From the NCBI RefSeq assembly GCF_000165795.1, contig NZ_CM001022.1, positions 310,001 to 374,000 of the forward strand: 64,000 bases of DNA, given 5' to 3'. Shown here piece by piece: positions 34,454 to 45,421 of the stretch. Position numbers and translations under genes: made by a program. Below the pieces are notes generated by a model, which had not been told where the DNA came from, made no database searches, and was given only the letters and a program-made list of their open reading frames with translations. Numbering within the stretch: the stretch's first letter is position 1; each line of letters opens with the position of its first letter. The stretch comes from Aminomonas paucivorans DSM 12260. GTDB lineage: Bacteria; Synergistota; Synergistia; Synergistales; Synergistaceae.

Positions 34454-35343
34454 GCCGCCTCGGCCTCCCTCCGCAGGAAGGTCTCCCACTCCGTGAGGAG
34501 CACCCCCCCGAGGATCAGCAGCCCCCCCAGGACGGCCCGGGGGCTCCAGGGGTCCAGCCCCAGCCACACGGCGATGAGGTAGCCGAAGGGGCTCTCCAGG
34601 GACATGATCACCGCCGCGTGGGACTCCGGGGTGAACCTCTGGGCGGTGCACTGCACCAGGAAGGCCACCACCGTCCCCCCCAGGGAGACGAAGAGCAGCT
34701 CCCCCCAGGCGACGGCCCCCAGGGCCAGAGAGGGCAGGGGCTCCAGGAGCAGGGCCAGGACGGTGAGAAAGAGGGCCGCGAAGGCCAGGTGCAGGGTGGT
34801 GAGGGTGAGGGGGTCGATGCGCCGGGCCAGCCAGCCGATGGCCAAAACCTGGCAGGCGCAGCCCAGGGCCAGGACGGCGTTGTAGAGGTCTCCCGCCACG
34901 AAGCGCATCCCCGGGGTGAAGGCCATGATCCCCAGGCCCAGGGAGACCACCAGGGCCCCCCCGAAGGCGAAGAGGCTGGGGCGTCTCCGGTAGAGGAGCC
35001 ATAGGAGGAAGGGCACCTGCACCACGTAGGTTCCGGAGATGAAGGCCTGTTTCCCCGGGCTGCTGGCCGCCAGGCCCAGGGCGAGGAGGACGAAGACCCC
35101 CGTCATGAGGGCTCCCAGGGCCAGGGAACCCCTCCAGGCCTCCCGGTCCGCCTCCCGGACCCGTCGGCGGAAGAGGACCAGCAGGAAGAGGGCGCTCAGG
35201 GACAGGCGAAGGGCCACCATCCACAGGGGGGAGAGGACCTCCAGAAGATGGGCGCAGAAGGGAAATCCCGCGCCCCAGACCACCGCCACGAGAAACAGGG
35301 ACAGGTCCGCCGCCAGGACGGCCCGTCGGGAAGAAGGGTTCAT
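34450..35343 (-). CDS. EamA/DMT-family transporter
   Basis: A 297-residue drug/metabolite transporter with ten predicted membrane segments in two EamA repeats (~15-145 and ~155-290). Repeat landmarks include LVAVVWGAGFPFCAHLL near the start and ESHAAVIMSLESPFGYLIAVWLGL near the C-terminus, the conserved Glu-containing motif of DMT carriers. It probably exports amino acids or metabolites; substrate is unknown. It starts at the ATG at 35343 (AAAGGAG upstream). It is divergent to the serine dehydratase gene 87 bp away, so an amino-acid-linked role is possible. Confidence 0.88.
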   Translation of the reverse strand: MNPSSRRAVLAADLSLFLVAVVWGAGFPFCAHLLEVLSPLWMVALRLSLSALFLLVLFRRRVREADREAWRGSLALGALMTGVFVLLALGLAASSPGKQAFISGTYVVQVPFLLWLLYRRRPSLFAFGGALVVSLGLGIMAFTPGMRFVAGDLYNAVLALGCACQVLAIGWLARRIDPLTLTTLHLAFAALFLTVLALLLEPLPSLALGAVAWGELLFVSLGGTVVAFLVQCTAQRFTPESHAAVIMSLESPFGYLIAVWLGLDPWSPRAVLGGLLILGGVLLTEWETFLRREAEAA

Positions 35344-35430
35344 GAAGGGCTCCTTTCCAGAGAAGACATGCAAGTATACCACGTTGAGCCCCCTGAGGGG
35401 AGCCGCGAGTCCAAGGAGGAGGCGCAGGGC

Positions 35431-36972
35431 ATGAAACGGATCAGTCTGCTGAACCACGTGTTGGGGCCGGTGATGCGGGGGCCTTCCAGCTCCCACACCG
35501 CCGGGTCCTACCACATCGGTCGGATGCTGCGGGACCTGTTCGGGGAGACCCCCCGGGAAGCCCGCTTCTCCTTCGACGTGAAGGGATCCTACGGGGTCTG
35601 CTACCATCACCAGGCCAGCGACCGGGCCTTTCTGGCGGGACTGCTGGGCTGGGACCTGCTGGATCGGCGCTTCGCCGAGGCCCTGGACCGGGCGCCGGGG
35701 GAGGGGTTGGACGCCTCCTTCGAGGTGGTGCCCCTTCCGGGGGAGGACCTGCACCCCAACGAGGTGGCGTTTCGCCTCCGGGGGCCCGGGGGGGAGCTGT
35801 CCGGCCGGGCCCGCTCCGTGGGGGGCGGCATGGTGCGGGTGACGGAGCTGCAGGGGTACCTCGCGGACCTGAACGGGGAGGACCACGTCCTCCTGGCAGC
35901 GGGGCCGGAAGGGGCGGTGCGCGCCGCCCTGGAAGGGGTTGCCCCCCGGCTTCGGGTGGTCCCGGGGGAGCGGGGGGTCCTGGGGATCGCCGAGGCTCCC
36001 GAGCCCTGGTCGAAGGAGATCCTGGCGGACCTGGCGGGTCGGGCGGCCCGGGGGCAGCTGGCCTGGGTCCGGACCTGCCGTCCCCTGCAGTTTCCCCTGA
36101 AAGGGGCGCCCCTGGCGGAGTCTGCGGAAGACCTGCTGCGTCTGGCAAAGGAGAGGGACGGCCGCCTTGCCAGCGCCGCCCTGGCCCACGAGGCCTCCCT
36201 TCTGGGGCTCTCGGAGGAGGCCCTCCTGAAAGAGATGACCCGACGCCTGGGGATCTTCCGGGAGGCGGTGCGCCGGGGGCTGGAGGGAGACCTTTCGGGA
36301 AAGCTTCAGCTCCTGCCCCCCTACGCGGGGACCCTGGAGGCGGCCCGCCGGGAGGGGCGGGCCCCCACCGGGGGCATCGGCCTGTCCGCGGCCATCCGGG
36401 CCATGGCGGCCATGCACGCCTGCGGGGCCCTGGAGGTGGTGTGCGCCGCCCCCACGGGAGGGGCCGCGGGGGCCCTGCCGGGGGTCTTCGTCGCCCTGGA
36501 GGAGGAGCGGGGCCTGCCGGAGGAGGTCCTGGCCCGGGGGCTCTTCGCCGCCGCGGCGGTGGGGCTGGTGCTGGCCGCCCGGGGCACCTTCGCCGCCGAG
36601 GAGGCGGGGTGCCAGGTGGAGATCGGCGCTGCCGGGGCCATGGCCGCGGCGGGGGTGGTGGAGGTCTTCGGGGGCACCGCCCTCCAGGCCCTGGACGCGG
36701 GGGCCATCGGTTTCCAGAACACCATGGGCTCCGTGTGCGACCCCGTGGGGGGGATGGTGGAGATCCCCTGCCACACCCGCAACGCCGCCCTGGCGGCCTC
36801 CGCCTTCGTCCTGGCGGACCTGGTCCTGGCGGGGTGTCCCAACCCCATCCCCCTGGACGAGACGGTGGACGCGGTGATGGACGTGGGGCGTCGCCTGCCC
36901 CCGGAGCTGCGCTGCACCGCCCTGGGGGGGCTTGCCCTCTGTCCCTCCGCGGTGCGTCTGGCGGGGCGCTGA
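35431..36972 (+). CDS. sdaA: L-serine dehydratase, iron-sulfur type, single chain (beta-alpha fusion)
   Basis: Converts L-serine to pyruvate and ammonia with a [4Fe-4S] cluster, a main fermentative step. The 513-residue chain joins the beta domain (~1-180: LLNHVLGPVMRGPSSSHTAGSYHIGRM, FDVKGSY, HPNEVAF) to the catalytic alpha domain (~225-510: PTGGIGLSAAIRAMAAMHACG, VVCAAPTGGAAGALPG, EEAGCQVEIGAAGAMAAAG, GSVCDPVGGMVEIPC). Cys residues in VVCAAPTGG, GCQVEIG and VCDPVGG are the expected cluster ligands. The start is the ATG at 35431 behind AAGGAGGAGG. It ends before a long hairpin and converges on nhaC. Gram-positive anaerobes often split these domains into two genes; here they are fused. Confidence 0.93.
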   Translation: MKRISLLNHVLGPVMRGPSSSHTAGSYHIGRMLRDLFGETPREARFSFDVKGSYGVCYHHQASDRAFLAGLLGWDLLDRRFAEALDRAPGEGLDASFEVVPLPGEDLHPNEVAFRLRGPGGELSGRARSVGGGMVRVTELQGYLADLNGEDHVLLAAGPEGAVRAALEGVAPRLRVVPGERGVLGIAEAPEPWSKEILADLAGRAARGQLAWVRTCRPLQFPLKGAPLAESAEDLLRLAKERDGRLASAALAHEASLLGLSEEALLKEMTRRLGIFREAVRRGLEGDLSGKLQLLPPYAGTLEAARREGRAPTGGIGLSAAIRAMAAMHACGALEVVCAAPTGGAAGALPGVFVALEEERGLPEEVLARGLFAAAAVGLVLAARGTFAAEEAGCQVEIGAAGAMAAAGVVEVFGGTALQALDAGAIGFQNTMGSVCDPVGGMVEIPCHTRNAALAASAFVLADLVLAGCPNPIPLDETVDAVMDVGRRLPPELRCTALGGLALCPSAVRLAGR

Positions 36973-37084: not shown

Positions 37085-38620
37085 CTAGCGGATGTCCTCC
37101 AGAAGGGTGCGTCGTTCCACCCGGTCCTTGCCGTCCTTGCCCCAGAAGATGCCGATGCCCAGGTAGGTGAGGACGATGGCCATGATGGGGTTGAGCCAGT
37201 TCACCATGGCGTAGGGGCCGTAGACCAGGGGGGAGACCCCCAGCACGGACGTCTGGTAGGCGCCGCAGGTGTTCCAGGGGATGAGGGCGGAGGTGAGGGT
37301 CCCCGCGTCCTCCAGGGACCGGGAGAGCATCCGGGGCGCCAGCCCCGACCGGTCGAACATGGCCTTGAACATCCGTCCGGGCACCACGATGGAGAGGTAT
37401 TGGTCCCCCAGGAAGGCGTTGGAGAAGATGCAGGACACGATCACCGCCGTGATGAGTCCTCCCGCCCGCTTGACCCCCTTGGTGAGGGCGCCCAGGAGCA
37501 CCTCCAGGAAACCGCAGCGCTCCAGGAAGCCCCCCAGGGTGAGGGCGCAGATGACCATGGAGACGGACCACATCATGGACTGCATGCCTCCCCGGCTCAC
37601 CAGCTTGGAGATCATGCCCCCCACGTCCTTGGCCATCTCCGGGGCGATGCCTGCCAGGTGCTGCTTCGCCAGGAGGGCCGCCACGGCGGCGTTGTCCGCC
37701 GCGTCCGCCAGCTCCTGGGAGAAGAGGGCGGAATAGCCGCCCTGGGAGACCCCCCATGCGTCGCCCAGGGAAGCCCCCTGCATCAGGCACATGACGAAGG
37801 CGGTGCCGATGCCCGCGAAGATGCCCGGCAGGGCGGGGATCTTCAGGGCAGCCATGGAGATGACCACCAGGGGAGGCAGGAAGCAGAGGGGGGAGATGGG
37901 GAACTCCGCCCCCAACACCGCCTGGATGGCCTGGATCCGGCTGGCGTCCAGGGTGCCTCCGGCGAACCTCATGCCCATCACCGTCAGCACCACCGCCACG
38001 ATGGCGTAGGTGGGGCCGGTGGTCCAGAGCATGGCCTTGATGTGGTCGAAGAGGTTGGACCCCGAGACCGCCGGGGCCAGGTTGGTGGTGTCCGACAGGG
38101 GGCTCATCTTGTCCCCGAAGTAGGCCCCGGAGATGATGACCCCCGCCGTGAGGGGCACGGGAACCCCCAGGCCGTTGCCGATGCCCAGCATGGCCACGCC
38201 GATGGTGCCGGTGGTCTGCCAGCTGGATCCGGTGGCCAGGGCGATGATGGAGCAGATCAGCAGGGTCGCCAGGGGAAAGAAGGAAGGCTTCAGGATGAAC
38301 AGGCCGTAGTAGATGAGCCCCGGCACCACCCCGGAGAGGATCCAGGTCCCCACCAGGATGCCCACGCTCATGAGGATCATGTTGGCCTGCATGGCCGCCA
38401 TGATGCTTTGGATCGCCGACTCCTCCAGGTCCGCCCAGGAGTGCTTGAGGACGAAGCGGGCCACCAGGGCCACGAAGATCGCGGCGGTCACGATGGGCAT
38501 GTGGACCTCCGCCTCCACGAAGATGGTGCCGTAGGAAATGATGAGAGCCACCACCAGGAACACGATCAGGGACATGCCAAAGCTCGGAAGCTGACGCTGG
38601 TTTGAAGTACCCTTCTCCAT
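37085..38620 (-). CDS. nhaC: NhaC-family Na+/H+ antiporter
   Basis: A 511-residue inner-membrane antiporter with about 12 membrane segments. Family motifs include the LATGSSWQTTGTIGVAMLGIG region, the GAYFGDKMSPLSDTTNLAPAV signature (conserved GD-K-SPLSDTTNLA of the ion-translocation path), and the late SNAFLGDQYLSIVVPGRMF and LEDAGTLTSALIPWNTCGAYQ blocks. It exchanges sodium (or a substrate coupled to sodium) for protons. I chose the ATG at 38620, about ten bases after AGGAGGT; a GTG at 38632 overlaps that site. It stands alone and converges on sdaA. Confidence 0.92.
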   Translation of the reverse strand: MEKGTSNQRQLPSFGMSLIVFLVVALIISYGTIFVEAEVHMPIVTAAIFVALVARFVLKHSWADLEESAIQSIMAAMQANMILMSVGILVGTWILSGVVPGLIYYGLFILKPSFFPLATLLICSIIALATGSSWQTTGTIGVAMLGIGNGLGVPVPLTAGVIISGAYFGDKMSPLSDTTNLAPAVSGSNLFDHIKAMLWTTGPTYAIVAVVLTVMGMRFAGGTLDASRIQAIQAVLGAEFPISPLCFLPPLVVISMAALKIPALPGIFAGIGTAFVMCLMQGASLGDAWGVSQGGYSALFSQELADAADNAAVAALLAKQHLAGIAPEMAKDVGGMISKLVSRGGMQSMMWSVSMVICALTLGGFLERCGFLEVLLGALTKGVKRAGGLITAVIVSCIFSNAFLGDQYLSIVVPGRMFKAMFDRSGLAPRMLSRSLEDAGTLTSALIPWNTCGAYQTSVLGVSPLVYGPYAMVNWLNPIMAIVLTYLGIGIFWGKDGKDRVERRTLLEDIR

Positions 38621-38688
38621 ATCAGGTCCCACCTCCTCGGGTCGTCTCGTTCCAGATTCCTAGCCGGTGTGACGCCGCGCCGGGGGTC

Positions 38689-39828
38689 CTAGAGGATCGC
38701 CCGGACCATGGCCCATTCCCGGAACCCCGTGAGAACCCGCCAGGGCCCGGAGAGCATCCGATCCACCTCCTCGTCTCCCGTGTCCAGGCGCAGGACGCCC
38801 CCCAGGGACTGGAGCTTTCCCGGAGTGGCCACGGGCAGGATGTTCCTTCGTCCCAGACGGTGCAGCACCGCCGGGCTGAACTGCTGGTTGCCCCGACCGA
38901 AGAGGAACCCCTGTCCCCCGATGGGGGTGACCAGGGCCAGGGTTCGGGGGTGTCGGTCCAGCAGGTCCAGGAGGTCCCGTTCGTTCAGATCCCGGGCCAG
39001 GAGGCGGTCCTCCAGGAGGGCATCCACTCCCAGGAGGGTTCCCTCCAGCCCCAGCTCGTCCAGAACCGCCCGGGGGGTGGTGCCGGGCCCCACCAGGGTC
39101 AGGCGCTTCGGGTCCCGGATCTCCAGAAACCCCTGGGCCAGAGCGGCCTGCTGTGCCCGGTCGCTGGCGGGGGTGCCGCTCTTGAGTCCCTGCACCCGTC
39201 CCCGCTGGTAGGGGACCCGGAGGAACCCGAAGAGCCGGGCGGAAACCCGACCCTGTCGGTAGGCCTCCTCGTCCAGGTCCATCACCTCCAGCTCCCGCTC
39301 CTGCCGGGCCTTGCCCTCCAGGAACGAGACCGCCAGCCTGCCCGCGCTGGCCGGGTCCGTGGCGAAGACGGCGGAGTGGATCTTCACCCCCGCGGGGATG
39401 CCCACTGCGGGGATGCGGGTTTCCAAAGTCTCCGCCACGTCCCGGGCGGTTCCGTCCCCCCCGGCGAAGAGCACCAGGCTTGCCCCCGCGTCCTCCAGCA
39501 GGGCCGCCCCCCGGGCCGTGTCCTCCCCCCGGGTGGGTCGATCCGGGGCGGGGAACAGGGGCTGCACGGAGAAGCCCATCTCCCGGGCCAGGTCCTCCCC
39601 CATGGGGCCGGGGCCGCAGAGCAGGAGGATCCGGTCCGCCAGGGGGCGAAGCTCCTCCAGGGCGCGGCGCACCCGGGCCTGGGCCCGGGGAACCGCGCCC
39701 CTCGCGCGGGCTTCCGCCAGCACCGAATCGCCGTCGGTGCCCTTGAGCCCCACCGCTCCCCCCATGCCCGCCACGGGGTTCACCAGGAGTCCCACCCGCA
39801 GGGGGGCGGGGAAGCGACCCTCCGTCAC
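38689..39828 (-). CDS. ATP-NAD/AcoX-type kinase
   Basis: A 379-residue protein of the ATP-NAD kinase superfamily (long type, as in AcoX). The N-terminus VGLLVNPVAGMGG and the central LVLFAGGDGTARDVAE (GGDGT at 123-127, the ATP/NAD-binding signature) are intact. VGIPAGVKIHSAVFA and the later VTPIGGQGFLFGRGNQQFSP complete the fold. It may phosphorylate NAD or another small molecule; genes of this type are often found next to catabolic dehydrogenase operons but their role is poorly known. It begins at a GTG at 39828 that overlaps the TGA of the SDR gene before it, so translation is coupled. It is the last gene of the GcvP-like operon. Confidence 0.85.
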   Translation of the reverse strand: MTEGRFPAPLRVGLLVNPVAGMGGAVGLKGTDGDSVLAEARARGAVPRAQARVRRALEELRPLADRILLLCGPGPMGEDLAREMGFSVQPLFPAPDRPTRGEDTARGAALLEDAGASLVLFAGGDGTARDVAETLETRIPAVGIPAGVKIHSAVFATDPASAGRLAVSFLEGKARQERELEVMDLDEEAYRQGRVSARLFGFLRVPYQRGRVQGLKSGTPASDRAQQAALAQGFLEIRDPKRLTLVGPGTTPRAVLDELGLEGTLLGVDALLEDRLLARDLNERDLLDLLDRHPRTLALVTPIGGQGFLFGRGNQQFSPAVLHRLGRRNILPVATPGKLQSLGGVLRLDTGDEEVDRMLSGPWRVLTGFREWAMVRAIL

Positions 39829-40577
39829 GGATAGAGTCCCGCGGTCTCCCCGCCGTCCAGGCGCAGGTCCGCCCCGGTGAAGTACCGGGCGTCGTCGGAG
39901 GCCAGGAAGGCGAAGAGCGCCGCCACCTCCTCCGGCTCGGCGTGACGCTTCATGGGGATGCCCTCGTTCACCCGGGCCAGCATCTCCGGGGTGTACTCCG
40001 CCTTCTGCATGGGGGTGAGGACGTATCCCGGGCAGACGCAGTTCACCCGCACCGTCGGGGCCAGCTCCAGGGCCAGGGTCTTGGTGAGGAGGATCACCCC
40101 CGCCTTGGAGGCGTTGTAGTCCCCATACCAGCGGTGCCCTTCCGTCCCGTTGCTGGAGGCGGTCATGAGGATCACCCCGGAGCCCTGGGCGACCATGCGC
40201 CGCCCCGCCTCACGGGAGCAGAGGAACATGCCCCCCAGGTTGATCCCCATCACCCGGTTCCACTGCTCGTAGGGGATGTCCAGGCAGGGGTTGCGCACAC
40301 TGATCCCCGCGTTGGACACCAGCACGTCGATGCCCCCCAGGGTGCGATCCAGGGCCTCGAAGGCTCCTCGAACCTCCTCCTCCGAGGACACGTCCGCCCG
40401 AGCGCCCCCCGCGAAGGAGGAGTCCTCCAGGGCCGCGTCCAGCGCCGCCCCGTCCCGGTCCACCAGGAAAACCCGGCTTCCCTCGGCGGCGAAGCGCTTC
40501 GCCGTGGCCAGGCCGATGCCGCTGGCCGCCCCGGTCACCAGGACCCGCTTGTCCTCCAGTTCCTCGTACCGCGCCAT
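39825..40577 (-). CDS. Short-chain dehydrogenase/reductase (second SDR of the GcvP-like operon)
   Basis: A 250-residue classical SDR. TGAASGIG binds the dinucleotide; FLVDRDG after strand 2 ends in Asp, favouring NAD(H). NAG is present (VLVSNAG), with the catalytic Ser in LMTASSNG and the YNASK Tyr-Lys pair. The C-terminus LRLDGGETAGLYP is typical. It oxidises or reduces a hydroxy/keto substrate that cannot be named. It starts at the ATG at 40577, 26 bp after the GcvPB-like gene, and its stop overlaps the start of the kinase gene. It is clearly different in sequence from the first SDR of the operon at 43640-44407, so the two probably act on different intermediates. Confidence 0.88.
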   Translation of the reverse strand: MARYEELEDKRVLVTGAASGIGLATAKRFAAEGSRVFLVDRDGAALDAALEDSSFAGGARADVSSEEEVRGAFEALDRTLGGIDVLVSNAGISVRNPCLDIPYEQWNRVMGINLGGMFLCSREAGRRMVAQGSGVILMTASSNGTEGHRWYGDYNASKAGVILLTKTLALELAPTVRVNCVCPGYVLTPMQKAEYTPEMLARVNEGIPMKRHAEPEEVAALFAFLASDDARYFTGADLRLDGGETAGLYP

Positions 40578-40603: not shown

Positions 40604-42181
40604 CTAGCTTCGGGGCTCGAAGTAGCCCCGGTACTTCCTCTGGTAGGCCCGCCAGGTGATGGCCCAGCGCTTCGGGTCCTCCAGGGCGTCGTGGTCCACA
40701 TGGTGGATGGTGCTGCGATGGGGGGCATGCTTCAGGATCTCCGGGTTCTCCCGAGCCTCCCGGGCGATGCGCTCCAGCACCGCCACGTATTCGTCCATCT
40801 CCTCCACGGAGTAGGACTCCGTGGGTTCGACCGTGAAGGGTTGGGGCACCAGCCAGGGTTCGTGGCTGCTCCAGATGTGCATGCCGTAGTCGAAGATCCG
40901 GTTCTGCACGTCCCCGATGCCGCACCCCGTGGCGTCCATCAGATCCTGCATGCTGTAGCGCACCTGCTCCATCCGGTGCTCTCCCTTCGCGTAGGGAGCC
41001 TCGAAGCCGGGGATCTGAAGGATCTTGCGGAAGATGTAGTTGTTGTTGAGGATGGAGACCCGGGCCACCTCGCGCAGCCCCTCGTCCCCCAGGCTCAGGA
41101 TCCAGGCGTAGGCCCGCACGATGGCGGGCAGTACCCCGTAGTAGTCCTTGATGCGGTTCTCCCGGTCCACTCCCTGGTACTGGAGGAAGAACCGGCCCTG
41201 GGCGTCCTTGTCCACCACCGGGGCGGGCAGGAAGGGCACCAGGTGCTCCCGAACCCCGAACACGCCGCTGCCCGGGCCGCCGCAGCCGTGGGGGGAGGAG
41301 AAGGTCTTGTGCAGGTTGAAGAAGCACAGGTCGAAGCCTGCCTCCTTGGCCCGGGTGATGCCCAGGATGCCGTTGGCGTTGGCCTGGTCGTAGCTGCACA
41401 GCCCCCCCACGGAGTGCACCAGGTCCGTCATCTCCCGGATGTGGGGGTTGTAGATCCCGATGTCCTCGGGGTTGGTGATGAGCAGGGCGGCGGTGCGCTC
41501 GTTCACCGCGGCCTTGAAGGCCTCCAGGTCCGGGCGCCCCGTCACCGGGTCGGGGTAGACGGTGACCACCTTGAAGCCCTTGATCTTCGCCACCGCCGGG
41601 TTGGAGGGGTGGGAGAAGATGGTGGTGACGATCTCGTCCTTCTGGCCGCTCAGGCCCTGGGCGTCCACCCAGTTGCGGATCACCGAGCCGATGCCCAGGA
41701 TGGCCTGGGAGCCCCCGCCGGGGTGCAGGCAGAACCGATCGAGTCCGGACACTTCCTTCAGGAAGCGCTCCGTCTCGTGGAGGATCTCCAGGGCTCCCTG
41801 CACCGTGGAGGGGTCCTGCAGGGGGTGCAGCTCCGCCAGCTTGGGGGAGGCGGCGAACTGGTCGTTGATCTTGGGGCTGTACTTCATGGTGCAGGTGCCC
41901 TGGCCGATGTCCACGTTCAGGTCCGCCCCCAGGTTCTCCTGGGAGAGGCGCAGGTAGTGCCGCAGCACCCGCATCTGGGCCATCTCCGGCAGCGCCGGGG
42001 GGGTCTTCCGCCTCATGCCCTCGGGCAGATCCCGAAGGGGGTCGCCGCAGGCCGCCGCGGCGGGACCCGGAGCGGGCACCTGGACGCCCCGCTCCCCGGG
42101 GGAGGAAAGCTCGAAGAGGATGGGTTCGTCCCACCGGGCCTGGTGGAAGTCCCGGGGTTCCGTCTTGGGGTTGGTCTTCAT
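40604..42181 (-). CDS. Divergent GcvPB-like PLP-dependent decarboxylase subunit
   Basis: A 525-residue homologue of glycine dehydrogenase subunit 2, with an N-terminal extension of about 50 residues. The PLP lysine is K292 in FNLHKTFSSPHG, and TVQGALE and TCTMKYSPK are kept. Compared with the canonical family (from memory), other sites differ: QPAAGAQGE is HPGGGSQAI at 153-161, DSAHGTNPASA is FSHPSNPAVA at 189-198, TNPNTLG is TNPEDIG at 236-242, DGANLNA is DQANANG at 265-271 and HGGGGPG is HGCGGPG. It should be a PLP decarboxylase, but glycine as substrate is doubtful. It lies 13 bp after the GcvPA-like gene and no gcvT or gcvH is nearby. Standard annotation would call it gcvPB. Confidence 0.85.
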   Translation of the reverse strand: MKTNPKTEPRDFHQARWDEPILFELSSPGERGVQVPAPGPAAAACGDPLRDLPEGMRRKTPPALPEMAQMRVLRHYLRLSQENLGADLNVDIGQGTCTMKYSPKINDQFAASPKLAELHPLQDPSTVQGALEILHETERFLKEVSGLDRFCLHPGGGSQAILGIGSVIRNWVDAQGLSGQKDEIVTTIFSHPSNPAVAKIKGFKVVTVYPDPVTGRPDLEAFKAAVNERTAALLITNPEDIGIYNPHIREMTDLVHSVGGLCSYDQANANGILGITRAKEAGFDLCFFNLHKTFSSPHGCGGPGSGVFGVREHLVPFLPAPVVDKDAQGRFFLQYQGVDRENRIKDYYGVLPAIVRAYAWILSLGDEGLREVARVSILNNNYIFRKILQIPGFEAPYAKGEHRMEQVRYSMQDLMDATGCGIGDVQNRIFDYGMHIWSSHEPWLVPQPFTVEPTESYSVEEMDEYVAVLERIAREARENPEILKHAPHRSTIHHVDHDALEDPKRWAITWRAYQRKYRGYFEPRS

Positions 42182-42194
42182 GGGGGTCTCCTCC

Positions 42195-43586
42195 CTATCC
42201 CTTCAGGCAGGCGGCCAGCTCCGAGGCCAGCCGGTCCAGGTCCGCGTCGGTGTGCAGCTCCGAGGTGCAGTACAGGGCGCTCTGCCCCAGGGAGGGGAAT
42301 TCTTCGGACAGGTCCTGACCGCCGTAGATGTTCCGCTCCAGGAGCCGCCGGTTGATCTCCTTCACCGAAAGCCCCGTGCCGTCGAAGTTCACCGGGAACT
42401 CCCGGAAGGGGGTCCCGGTGAGGGCGGGGGCCTTCACCCCGGGAAGCTCGTTCAGGCGCTTTGCCAGGTATCGGGCCCGCTGCATGAGCCCCGTCCCCAG
42501 CTCCTGCATTCCTTTGGGGCCCATGAGGGCCAGGTAGACCCCCGCGGTGATGCCCCACAGGGCCGCGGCGGTGCCCACGAACTCCTTGCCGTCCTCCCGC
42601 TTGGCGAAGGAGGTGCGCTCCCAGGCCACGTCCCCGAAGCCCCATTCCCCCTTCTCCGTGGGGGCGACGCCGAAGAGCCGGGAGGGGTACTCCTGCACGA
42701 ACCGTTCCTCGTCGGCGGAGGCGATGAAGCCCCCCCGGCCGCCGCCGTAGTACATGTGGATGCCCAGAGGCTGGATCTCCCCGCAGGTCAGGTCCGCCCC
42801 GTAGCCGCTGGGAGGGGTGAGCACCCCCAGGGAGGCGGGATCCGCGAAGACCGTCAGCAGCCCCCCGACGGCGTGGGCCGCATCGGCCATCTGTTGTCCC
42901 AGGGTCCCGATGCCCCCCAGAAAGGAGGGGTTCTCGAAGTAGACCGAGGCGGTGGAGGAGGAGAGCTTCCGGTTCAGGTCCTCCAGGTCCGCCTCCCCCG
43001 TGGCGGCGTGGAAGCCGAAGAGGGTCACCTTCACGTCCGGGCGCAGATAGTTGCGGATCACCCGGAGCCGGTCGGGGTTCGTGGCGGCGCTGACCAGCAC
43101 CTCGTCCCGCCCGGTGATGCGGCAGGCCATGCGCAGCGCCGTGGCGGCGGCCTGGGAGCCGTCGTAGGTGGGCACGTTCACCACCTCCGTCTCCAGCAGC
43201 TCCGCCATGAGGCTCTCGTACTCGAAGAGGGCCTGGAAGCGCCCGTGGTCCTCATAGGGCTCCCCGGCGTAGGCGGTGAGGAACTCCGACCGCCGGTTCA
43301 CCTCGTCGCACACCGCCGGGACCTGGGCCTGGTAGCAGCCCCCTCCCAGGAAGCTCAGAGCCTCGTCGCAGGTTCGGTTGCGGTCCAGGACCCCCATGAC
43401 GTGGCGGCGCAGCGCCGCCTCGGAGGCCAGGGGTGCGGGCAGGTCCATGCGGCCCCGGAAGCGCAGGGCCTCGGGGATGCAGGCGTAGAATTCCTCGATG
43501 TCCCGGGCGCCGATGGATTCCAGCATCCGGCGCTGGATCGCCGGGTCCGAGTTGGGGATGTAGGGGTGCACGAACGTCTCGCTCAT
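42195..43586 (-). CDS. Divergent GcvPA-like decarboxylase subunit
   Basis: A 463-residue homologue of glycine dehydrogenase subunit 1, the partner that completes the two-chain decarboxylase. The N-terminus keeps YIPNSDPAIQRRMLESIG and IPEALRF. SFLGGGCYQAQVPAVCDEVNRRSEF aligns with the canonical SFLGGG...Y-H..P block, but the expected TPYQPEISQGTLQ loop is replaced by YAGEPYEDHGRFQ at 106-118, close to the active site in this family. VPTYDGSQAAATALRMA and the GRGGFIA segment are recognisable. It starts at the ATG at 43586 with TAAGGAGG upstream. Tight spacing with the GcvPB-like gene implies a heterodimer. The same caution about substrate applies. Confidence 0.85.
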   Translation of the reverse strand: MSETFVHPYIPNSDPAIQRRMLESIGARDIEEFYACIPEALRFRGRMDLPAPLASEAALRRHVMGVLDRNRTCDEALSFLGGGCYQAQVPAVCDEVNRRSEFLTAYAGEPYEDHGRFQALFEYESLMAELLETEVVNVPTYDGSQAAATALRMACRITGRDEVLVSAATNPDRLRVIRNYLRPDVKVTLFGFHAATGEADLEDLNRKLSSSTASVYFENPSFLGGIGTLGQQMADAAHAVGGLLTVFADPASLGVLTPPSGYGADLTCGEIQPLGIHMYYGGGRGGFIASADEERFVQEYPSRLFGVAPTEKGEWGFGDVAWERTSFAKREDGKEFVGTAAALWGITAGVYLALMGPKGMQELGTGLMQRARYLAKRLNELPGVKAPALTGTPFREFPVNFDGTGLSVKEINRRLLERNIYGGQDLSEEFPSLGQSALYCTSELHTDADLDRLASELAACLKG

Positions 43587-43639: not shown

Positions 43640-44407
43640 TCAGGCGGTGCCGCCCCCGTCGATGACCAGGATGGAGCCGCTGGCCCAGGGGGAGAGATCG
43701 CTCAGGAAGAAGTACACCGCCTTGGCGATGTCCTCCGGGGTGCCCAGGCGGTGGATGGGGCGTTCGGCGCTCTCCGCCAGCCACTTGTCCAGGTCGTAGC
43801 CCAGCTGCCGGGCCTCGTCCCGCAGCAGGGGGGTGTCCACGTCCCCGGGGCAGACGCAGTTCACCCGGATGTTCTGGGCTCCGTGGTCGATGGCCAGGGC
43901 TCGGGTGAGGTTCACCACCCCGCCTTTGGCGGCGCAGTAGGACACCGCGGTGGGGCCGCCCTTGACGCCCCAGCCGGAGCCGATGAGCACCACGCTGCCC
44001 CCGCCTCCCTGGGCCAGGACGGGCATGACGTGTTTGGCCATCAGGTAGGCACCCTTGAGGCTCACGTCCACCACCAGGTTCCAATCCTTCTCCTCCAGAT
44101 CCGGGGCGCTCTTGCGGCGGATCACCCCGGCGCAGTGCACGAAGCCGTAGAGCCCCCCGAAGGTCGCCAGGGCGCCCTCCACGGCGGCCTTCACCGAGGC
44201 CTCGTCCGCCACGTTGCACCGGAAGAACCGGGCCTTGCCTCCCGAGGTGGCCTCGAACTCCCGCCCCTTGACCTCGTCCAGGTCGAACACCGCCACGGAG
44301 GCCCCCACGCCCAGAAGAAATTCCGCGCAGCCCCGGCCGATGCCCGAGGCTCCTCCCGTGACCGCCACCGTCTTGCCGGAAAGACCGAATTGCCGCTCCC
44401 AGTTCAT
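43640..44407 (-). CDS. Short-chain dehydrogenase/reductase (first gene of the GcvP-like operon)
   Basis: A 255-residue SDR. TGGASGIG forms the dinucleotide loop and VFDLDEVKG after strand 2 suggests NAD(H). The usual NNAG is HCAG (GFVHCAGVIRRK). The catalytic Ser lies in VLIGSGWG and Tyr-Lys in SYCAAKGG, so the active site is complete. The end, SILVIDGGGTA, is typical. It starts at the ATG at 44407 with GAGGAGGGG upstream and is directly behind the operon promoter. Its position as first gene of the operon suggests it performs an entry or balancing redox step for the GcvP-like enzyme. Confidence 0.9.
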   Translation of the reverse strand: MNWERQFGLSGKTVAVTGGASGIGRGCAEFLLGVGASVAVFDLDEVKGREFEATSGGKARFFRCNVADEASVKAAVEGALATFGGLYGFVHCAGVIRRKSAPDLEEKDWNLVVDVSLKGAYLMAKHVMPVLAQGGGGSVVLIGSGWGVKGGPTAVSYCAAKGGVVNLTRALAIDHGAQNIRVNCVCPGDVDTPLLRDEARQLGYDLDKWLAESAERPIHRLGTPEDIAKAVYFFLSDLSPWASGSILVIDGGGTA

Positions 44408-44755: not shown

Positions 44756-45421
44756 ATGGAAAACCACATCTACTCCTCCGCGGCGGACTACGCCTACGGC
44801 AGGCTTCGGCGGGACATCATCCTCAAGCGCCTGGAGCCGGGGCAGCGTCTCTCCGAGGCGGGGCTGGCGGAACAGCTGGAGGTGAGCCGGACCCCGGTTC
44901 GGGAGGCCCTGCGGCGCCTGGGAGCGGAGGGGCTGGTGGTCCTGGTGCCCAACAGCGGGGTCTGGGTGGCCTCCCCGTCCCTGCAGGAGATGGTGGACAC
45001 CTTCGACGTGCGGGAGGGGCTGGAGTGCATGGCGGTGGAGCGGGCGGCCCGCAACGCCACGCCCCTGCAACTCTGTCGCCTGGAGGAGTGCATCGAGAGG
45101 GAGGAGGAGGTCTTCCGGATCCGGGACTTCGAGGAGTACCTGGAGGTGAACACCGCCTTCCACCGCACCCTTGCGGAATCGGGGGGCAACCGGGTGCTGG
45201 CGGACTACGTGGAGAAGCTCCTGGCCCGCACCTTCGTCTTCATGGTGTTCTACGAGGACTTCTTCGAGCGCAGCGGCAACCCCAGTCTGGAGGACCACCG
45301 ACACCTTCTGGCGGCGCTGCGGCGCAAGGACGGGGAGGCTGCGGTGGCCCTCATGCGCGCCCACGTCCAGACCTCCGCGGAGGATCTGCGACGTACCCTC
45401 CAGGGGCACGAGGTGCCCTGA
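44756..45421 (+). CDS. GntR-family regulator (FadR/FCD) of the GcvP-like operon
   Basis: A 221-residue regulator. The winged-helix domain includes YGRLRRDIILKRLEPGQRLSEAGLAEQLEVSRTPVREALRRLGAEGLV, a full GntR signature. The FCD domain (~80-215) has Asp/His metal-site candidates in TFDVREGLE, NTAFHRTLAES and SLEDHRHLLAALRRKD. It starts at the ATG at 44756. It is divergent from the SDR-GcvPA-GcvPB-SDR-kinase operon with both promoters in one 349-base region, so it very likely represses that operon until a substrate or intermediate binds. It is only a distant paralogue of the regulator at 22349-23020. Confidence 0.9.
   Translation: MENHIYSSAADYAYGRLRRDIILKRLEPGQRLSEAGLAEQLEVSRTPVREALRRLGAEGLVVLVPNSGVWVASPSLQEMVDTFDVREGLECMAVERAARNATPLQLCRLEECIEREEEVFRIRDFEEYLEVNTAFHRTLAESGGNRVLADYVEKLLARTFVFMVFYEDFFERSGNPSLEDHRHLLAALRRKDGEAAVALMRAHVQTSAEDLRRTLQGHEVP

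Follow-up and report, generated by a model that had tools for sequence, protein, structure and literature searches.

The closest described systems are the two-subunit P-proteins of the glycine cleavage system (GCS), GcvPA/GcvPB, represented by the Thermus thermophilus enzyme (1WYT/1WYU) and by an integrative model of GCSPA-GCSPB (9A73). In human GLDC, Y161 and Y164 are listed as active-site residues, and docking, which is itself a prediction, has given predicted H-protein contact positions (PMC7259800). The window analyzed here (64,000 nucleotides of Aminomonas paucivorans DSM 12260, contig NZ_CM001022.1, positions 310,001 to 374,000) encodes a related pair, hereafter PA' and PB'. It shares with GcvPA/GcvPB the fold, the PA-PB gene order, the PLP lysine of the HKTF motif, the PLP-core His and Asp, and the TNP, CTMKY, and QG elements. 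It differs from them by replaced substrate-side loops in both subunits, by the lack of a GcvH or GcvT partner, and by its operon. The open PMC literature, to which the search was confined, yielded no description of this family.

A P-protein pair with an intact PLP core

PB' is a GcvPB-like PLP subunit of 525 amino acids, encoded on the minus strand (40604-42181) from an ATG at 42181 with a strong ribosome binding site upstream. In profile searches, it scores 528 bits against NCBIfam NF003346 (cut-off 441), and it matches the solved Thermus P-protein chain 1WYT_B with E = 3.7e-84. By sequence, it is a true GcvPB homologue. Its partner PA' (42195-43586, minus strand, 463 amino acids), lying 13 bp upstream, reaches 453.8 bits against NF001696 (cut-off 364) and matches 1WYT_A with E = 4e-63. 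The homology of both subunits, together with the PLP lysine and core, relates the pair to GCS P-proteins at the sequence level, but the canonical signatures AHGTNPAS, TNPNTLG, DGANLNA, and YTPYQ are missing from it.

An earlier note, made from the sequence alone, had listed the kept and altered motifs of PB', and each was found where the note had placed it. The kept ones are HKTF (291), TVQGALE (126), and CTMKYSPK (97), and the altered ones are PGGGSQAI (154), SHPSNPAV (190), TNPEDIG (236), and DQANANG (265). K292, the predicted Schiff-base lysine (codon 41306-41308, minus strand), is retained, as the note had said. Its view that the changed loops hold PLP was, however, overstated, as K292, H191, D265, and T236-N237-P238 are intact in PB' and identical in all the PB sequences aligned (106 module-type, 9 divergent, and 7 canonical). 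Since this core is kept, the changes lie on the substrate and acceptor side.

Class-specific residues in both subunits

In the same alignment, the four signatures named above differ from those of GcvPB, and three of them are near-invariant in a separate PB clade. Residues S190, P192, E239, D240, and Q266 are found in 100% of the 106 module-type PBs, where the 7 canonical sequences have A, G, N, T, and G, respectively. Further residues are invariant in the module-type PBs (G93, Q94, T96, T187, W360, R403, E405, Q406, R408, W437, S439, H440, P448, and T450) and are different, or not conserved, in the canonical ones. C300 and Y457 also belong to the residues near the PLP core that are fixed differently in the module-type sequences. 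PGGGSQAI, on the other hand, is 70-80% conserved among them and not invariant. Given such module-wide invariance, the changes are not due to chance or error.

The partner subunit is affected as well. The active-site loop of PA' (residues 103-116, 43239-43280, minus strand) reads LTAYAGEPYEDHGR, the canonical counterpart being TAYTPYQPEVSQG. The canonical YTPYQPExxQG is thus replaced by AYAGEPYEDHG, a class-specific change from T-P-Y-Q-P-E-x-S-Q-G to A-G-E-P-Y-E-D-H-G. When aligned with human GLDC (chain numbering plus 43, anchored on K754), PA' keeps the equivalent of Y161, while that of Y164 is deleted. Among the docking-predicted H-protein contacts, Q366, R373, and K376 are changed in the window protein to Trp, Lys, and Asp, respectively. 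The coordinated re-specification of the active site proposed in the earlier note is, therefore, borne out by class-specific residues in PA as well as in PB: as judged from the alignments, the substrate and acceptor side has been rebuilt in both subunits.

The AlphaFold model of PB' alone (pLDDT 70) is too weak to place R403 and R408 or to model the pocket. A Foldseek search with it returned P-proteins as the best matches, followed by sphingosine-1-phosphate (S1P) lyases and cysteine desulfurases.

Phylogeny and distribution

The 188 Synergistota genomes searched contain two kinds of PB, namely members of the family (roughly 50-85% identity) and canonical GcvPB, to which PB' is only 32-41% identical. 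In an IQ-TREE phylogeny of 45 sequences, 10 canonical PBs (including 1WYT and 9UZ6) are split from 35 family members with 100/100 support and long branches. The AU test rejects a tree in which the window protein is constrained to the canonical clade (p-AU 7e-8) and, less strongly, one in which its five closest relatives are moved there with it (p-AU 0.021). PB' thus falls outside the solved glycine dehydrogenases, rather than inside verified ones as would have spoken against the earlier note, and these sequence comparisons assign it to a distinct clade of PB homologues.

A contig scan gave 571 confirmed relatives, not separated into family and canonical sequences, so that canonical GcvPB may be among them. 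The best 80 of these 571 are all at least 57% identical and are spread over many lineages of bacteria and Asgard archaea. In sampled genomes, the family occurs in 17 out of 396 from a Chloroflexota class, 14 out of 379 from a Desulfobacterota class, and 26 out of 388 from a Bacillota phylum. A divergent branch of the family shows 47-53% identity.

The operon and its partner proteins

PB' is the third gene of an operon on the minus strand, in the order SDR1, PA', PB', SDR2, NADKL, and an NhaC transporter. The spacing is tight: in addition to the 13 bp between PA' and PB', the start of NADKL overlaps the stop of SDR2. The NhaC-family transporter (37085-38632, minus strand; TIGR00931, 436.9 bits) is likely the last gene. 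A divergent GntR/FCD gene (44756-45421, plus strand; PF00392, PF07729) is, from its position, the likely operon regulator. Facing the operon at 35248-36972 (plus strand), one ORF encodes a fused L-serine dehydratase (beta and alpha domains), which scores under the single-chain L-serine ammonia-lyase cut-off.

SDR1 (43640-44407, 255 amino acids) and SDR2 (39825-40577, 250 amino acids), both on the minus strand and matching PF13561/PF00106, are predicted NAD+-dependent dehydrogenases. They resemble the meso-2,3-butanediol and dihydroanticapsin dehydrogenase SDRs by their Rossmann fold, Ser-Tyr-Lys residues, and beta-2 Asp, but miss the equivalog cut-offs shown, only the broad PRK07231 subfamily being passed, by SDR2. 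Asp42 and Arg98 of SDR1 are invariant in 69 orthologues, as are the beta-2 Asp and the Arg of SDR2 in 51 (its conservation numbering beginning 5 codons downstream of the assigned start); in each set, the Arg following the NAG motif is invariant. By the usual SDR rule, an Asp ending the second strand denotes NAD+ use, so both enzymes are predicted to be of the NAD+ type.

NADKL (38689-39828, minus strand, GTG start) is a 379-residue protein of the NAD-kinase/DAGK superfamily. Like NAD kinases, it carries both Pfam domains over their cut-offs (PF01513, 65.7 bits; PF20143, 36.7 bits) and GGDGT, which is invariant in the NADKL alignment; its own invariant GGQG..GRGNQQ and conserved DTGD set it apart from NAD kinase and DAGK. 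No sequence match was found in the PDB, nor any in NCBIfam. Foldseek of its AlphaFold model (pLDDT 91.6) suggests a likeness to the DAGK families, which give the best, though weak and partial, matches (TM-scores 0.2-0.35), sphingosine kinase ranking lower. Two other identities were considered. That of AcoX was rejected for the one presumed AcoX-type sequence compared (from L135), with which only the GGDGT stretch aligns (E = 0.13). A role as NADP+ supplier for the SDRs is disfavored, as both carry the NAD+-type Asp.

Gene context in other genomes

Gene context was counted for 72 module-type loci flanked on either side by 4 kb or more, 26 divergent loci, and 5 canonical loci. The module-type operon is conserved in many lineages of bacteria and Asgard archaea. 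At the module-type loci, PA is nearby in 72 of 72, NADKL in 64, and an SDR in 63, and GcvH and GcvT are each near none. The canonical loci show the reverse, with PA, GcvH, and GcvT in 5/5 and neither NADKL nor SDR in any. The divergent loci have NADKL (21/26), SDR (13/26), LplA (5/26), Lpd (5/26), and GcvH (1/26).

In some Bacillota (L216, L218, L220, and L228), the divergent PA-PB adjoins lipS1-lipS2-lplA-lpd and canonical GCS genes. At L216, for example, the pair lies between LipS1-LipS2-LplA-Lpd on one side and NADKL, a permease, UPF0340 (TIGR01440), and GcvH on the other. Such neighborhoods suggest that the divergent branch is functionally linked to glycine or lipoate metabolism.

Other neighbors vary. 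A cis-3-hydroxy-L-proline dehydratase (505 bits, cut-off 500) lies inside the operon at L063, and a neighbor of the trans-3-hydroxyproline dehydratase/proline racemase family, below cut-off, is found at L107. In one member of the Bacillota (L046:12768-14159, plus strand), a dimethylamine methyltransferase gene, mtbB, is directly downstream of NADKL, with a corrinoid protein adjoining; an in-frame TAG after residue 349 is its probable pyrrolysine codon. At L113, L133, and L138 (genomes G011 and G013), the divergent PA-PB-NADKL adjoins, on the same strand, a propanediol-type microcompartment operon that also encodes an Fe-ADH and two proteins resembling TIGR01440 and radical SAM members, respectively. 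An ornithine aminotransferase and an M20 hydrolase are neighbors at L252, and family neighborhoods elsewhere hold amino-acid, peptide, TRAP, ABC, and NhaC transporters, permeases, and M20 hydrolases. Taken together, the neighbors point to amino-acid-like substrates, although the lineages disagree and no single substrate is indicated. Several genes were considered as substrate markers and set aside, each occurring in few lineages only: the MtbB/MttB methyltransferases (L046 and L088; L059 by clustering), the 3-hydroxyproline dehydratases (L063; weaker in L107), the propanediol (PDU) microcompartment (L113, L133, and L138), ornithine aminotransferase with M20 hydrolase (L252; L250 and L255 by eye), and genes of the creatininase family (L217; weakly in L069).

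The host genome lacks a glycine cleavage system

The A. paucivorans genome is one contig of 2,630,170 bases (2.63 Mb) and 99.96% complete. Profile searches, which worked on their controls (most control genomes being positive), found in it no GcvH (PF01597), no GcvT (PF01571), and no lipoate ligase/LipB domain (LplA/LipB; PF21948). Its sole Biotin_lipoyl (PF00364) match is a biotin carrier with the motif EAMKMENEI, and PA'-PB' is the only P-protein pair, no second GcvP pair being present. Ordinary GcvH-dependent glycine decarboxylation is, therefore, excluded there, and the suggestion of the earlier note that the acceptor is other than lipoyl-GcvH is supported for this genome. More broadly, 32 Synergistota genomes that carry the family (family member at E ≤ 1e-150) are near-complete (at least 95%); 12 of them, spanning nine genus codes, have no GcvH above the profile cut-off.

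A. paucivorans is reported to produce acetate from glycine by fermentation (PMC3035310). The host genome, which has no glycine cleavage system, carries two glycine reductase GrdB genes (G000:C1:1712035 and 2479651; L261 and L262).

Candidate functions

It is highly improbable that PA'-PB' is a normal GcvH-dependent glycine decarboxylase whose signatures have drifted. Both subunits do score above the curated GcvPA and GcvPB cut-offs, with the PLP core kept, but the near-complete host genome has none of GcvH, GcvT, lipoate ligase, or a lipoyl domain, PB' sits in a separate clade, and the changes are invariant across phyla instead of drifting. Moreover, genomes such as G011, G018, and G109 hold the family pair alongside a canonical gcvT-gcvH-gcvPAB set. 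For this host, the normal system is rejected for want of a carrier, barring an unrecognized lipoyl one. The pair might instead still decarboxylate glycine, or run the reaction in reverse, with the aminomethyl group going to a carrier other than lipoyl-GcvH. In its favor, an electron-yielding glycine oxidation is missing from this glycine-fermenting organism with two GrdB genes and no GCS, and the divergent branch adjoins GCS and lipoate genes (at the four Bacillota loci above). Nevertheless, both subunits have lost the canonical residues on the substrate side, new arginines are present and the Y164 equivalent is gone, the operon has no recurrent carrier gene, and the yeast extract that the organism needs could supply electrons via other amino acids; this reading is, on balance, unlikely.

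About equally doubtful is a PLP C-C lyase (retro-aldol or retro-Claisen) acting on a phosphorylated amino alcohol or hydroxy-amino acid, in which an SDR would set the oxidation state, NADKL would phosphorylate, and PA'-PB' would cleave, R403 and R408 binding the phosphate. By analogy, this would parallel the sphingoid-base set of SDR, DAGK-type kinase, and PLP lyase. The constancy of the SDR-PA-PB-NADKL set and the invariant new arginines are in its favor, as are, in the predicted models, the DAGK families being nearest to NADKL, with sphingosine kinase lower in the list, and S1P lyases coming next after P-proteins for PB'. The TM-scores between NADKL and DAGK are low, however, and any P-protein might have S1P lyase as its next closest type I fold.

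The explanation preferred here, which we hold to be somewhat likelier true than false, is that PA'-PB' is a heteromeric PLP-dependent C-C-cleaving complex of the P-protein superfamily, working outside any GCS, in a GntR-regulated, NAD+-linked and transporter-fed operon for the catabolism of a hydroxylated amino acid or a similar amine. It draws on the clade separation, on the class-specific residues of PB and PA (including the new invariant R403 and R408, and the lost Y164 equivalent), and on the lack of a lipoyl carrier in the host and of GcvH in 12 of the 32 family-bearing Synergistota genomes. The gene context also contributes, through the transporters, the M20 hydrolases, the cis-3-hydroxy-L-proline dehydratase in one operon, and the beta-2 Asp of the SDRs. 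In the mechanism proposed, K292 would carry PLP and form an aldimine with the substrate amino group. A bond between the alpha carbon and a neighboring carbon would then be broken, most likely by decarboxylation, which is what the parent enzyme does. The resulting carbanion would be protonated or handed to a small non-lipoyl acceptor, the pocket presumably having no need for a lipoyl arm. The two NAD+-type SDRs would oxidize a hydroxyl group on either substrate or product, and NADKL would act as a kinase on a small hydroxylated partner. The SDRs, PA'-PB', NADKL, the transporter, and the GntR regulator would thus form one catabolic operon. Against this preferred explanation, the SDRs and NADKL might instead belong to a neighboring reaction, the divergent branch, beside LplA/Lpd or GcvH at some loci, may still use lipoyl-H-protein, and the neighbor genes vary between lineages.

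Annotation and significance

The earlier note had also warned that the label of glycine dehydrogenase would hide this protein, and it does hide the pair: both subunits pass curated cut-offs (528 against 441 bits for NF003346, 454 against 364 for NF001696), so that a non-canonical family is annotated automatically as glycine dehydrogenase. Annotation and metabolic models take its genes for a glycine cleavage system. As the best 80 of the 571 relatives span many lineages, organisms are probably being credited with glycine or one-carbon pathways that they do not have.

A wider claim, to which we give a little less than an even chance, is that of a cross-domain class, annotated everywhere as glycine dehydrogenase, in which a P-protein has become a PLP lyase or decarboxylase that is independent of lipoate and acts on a new substrate. 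It would work alongside two SDRs and a kinase of a new family, in a catabolic pathway so far undescribed. If true, this would add a pathway to the amino-acid fermentation of sediments and digesters, and would constitute a case of a lipoyl-dependent enzyme re-used without lipoate.
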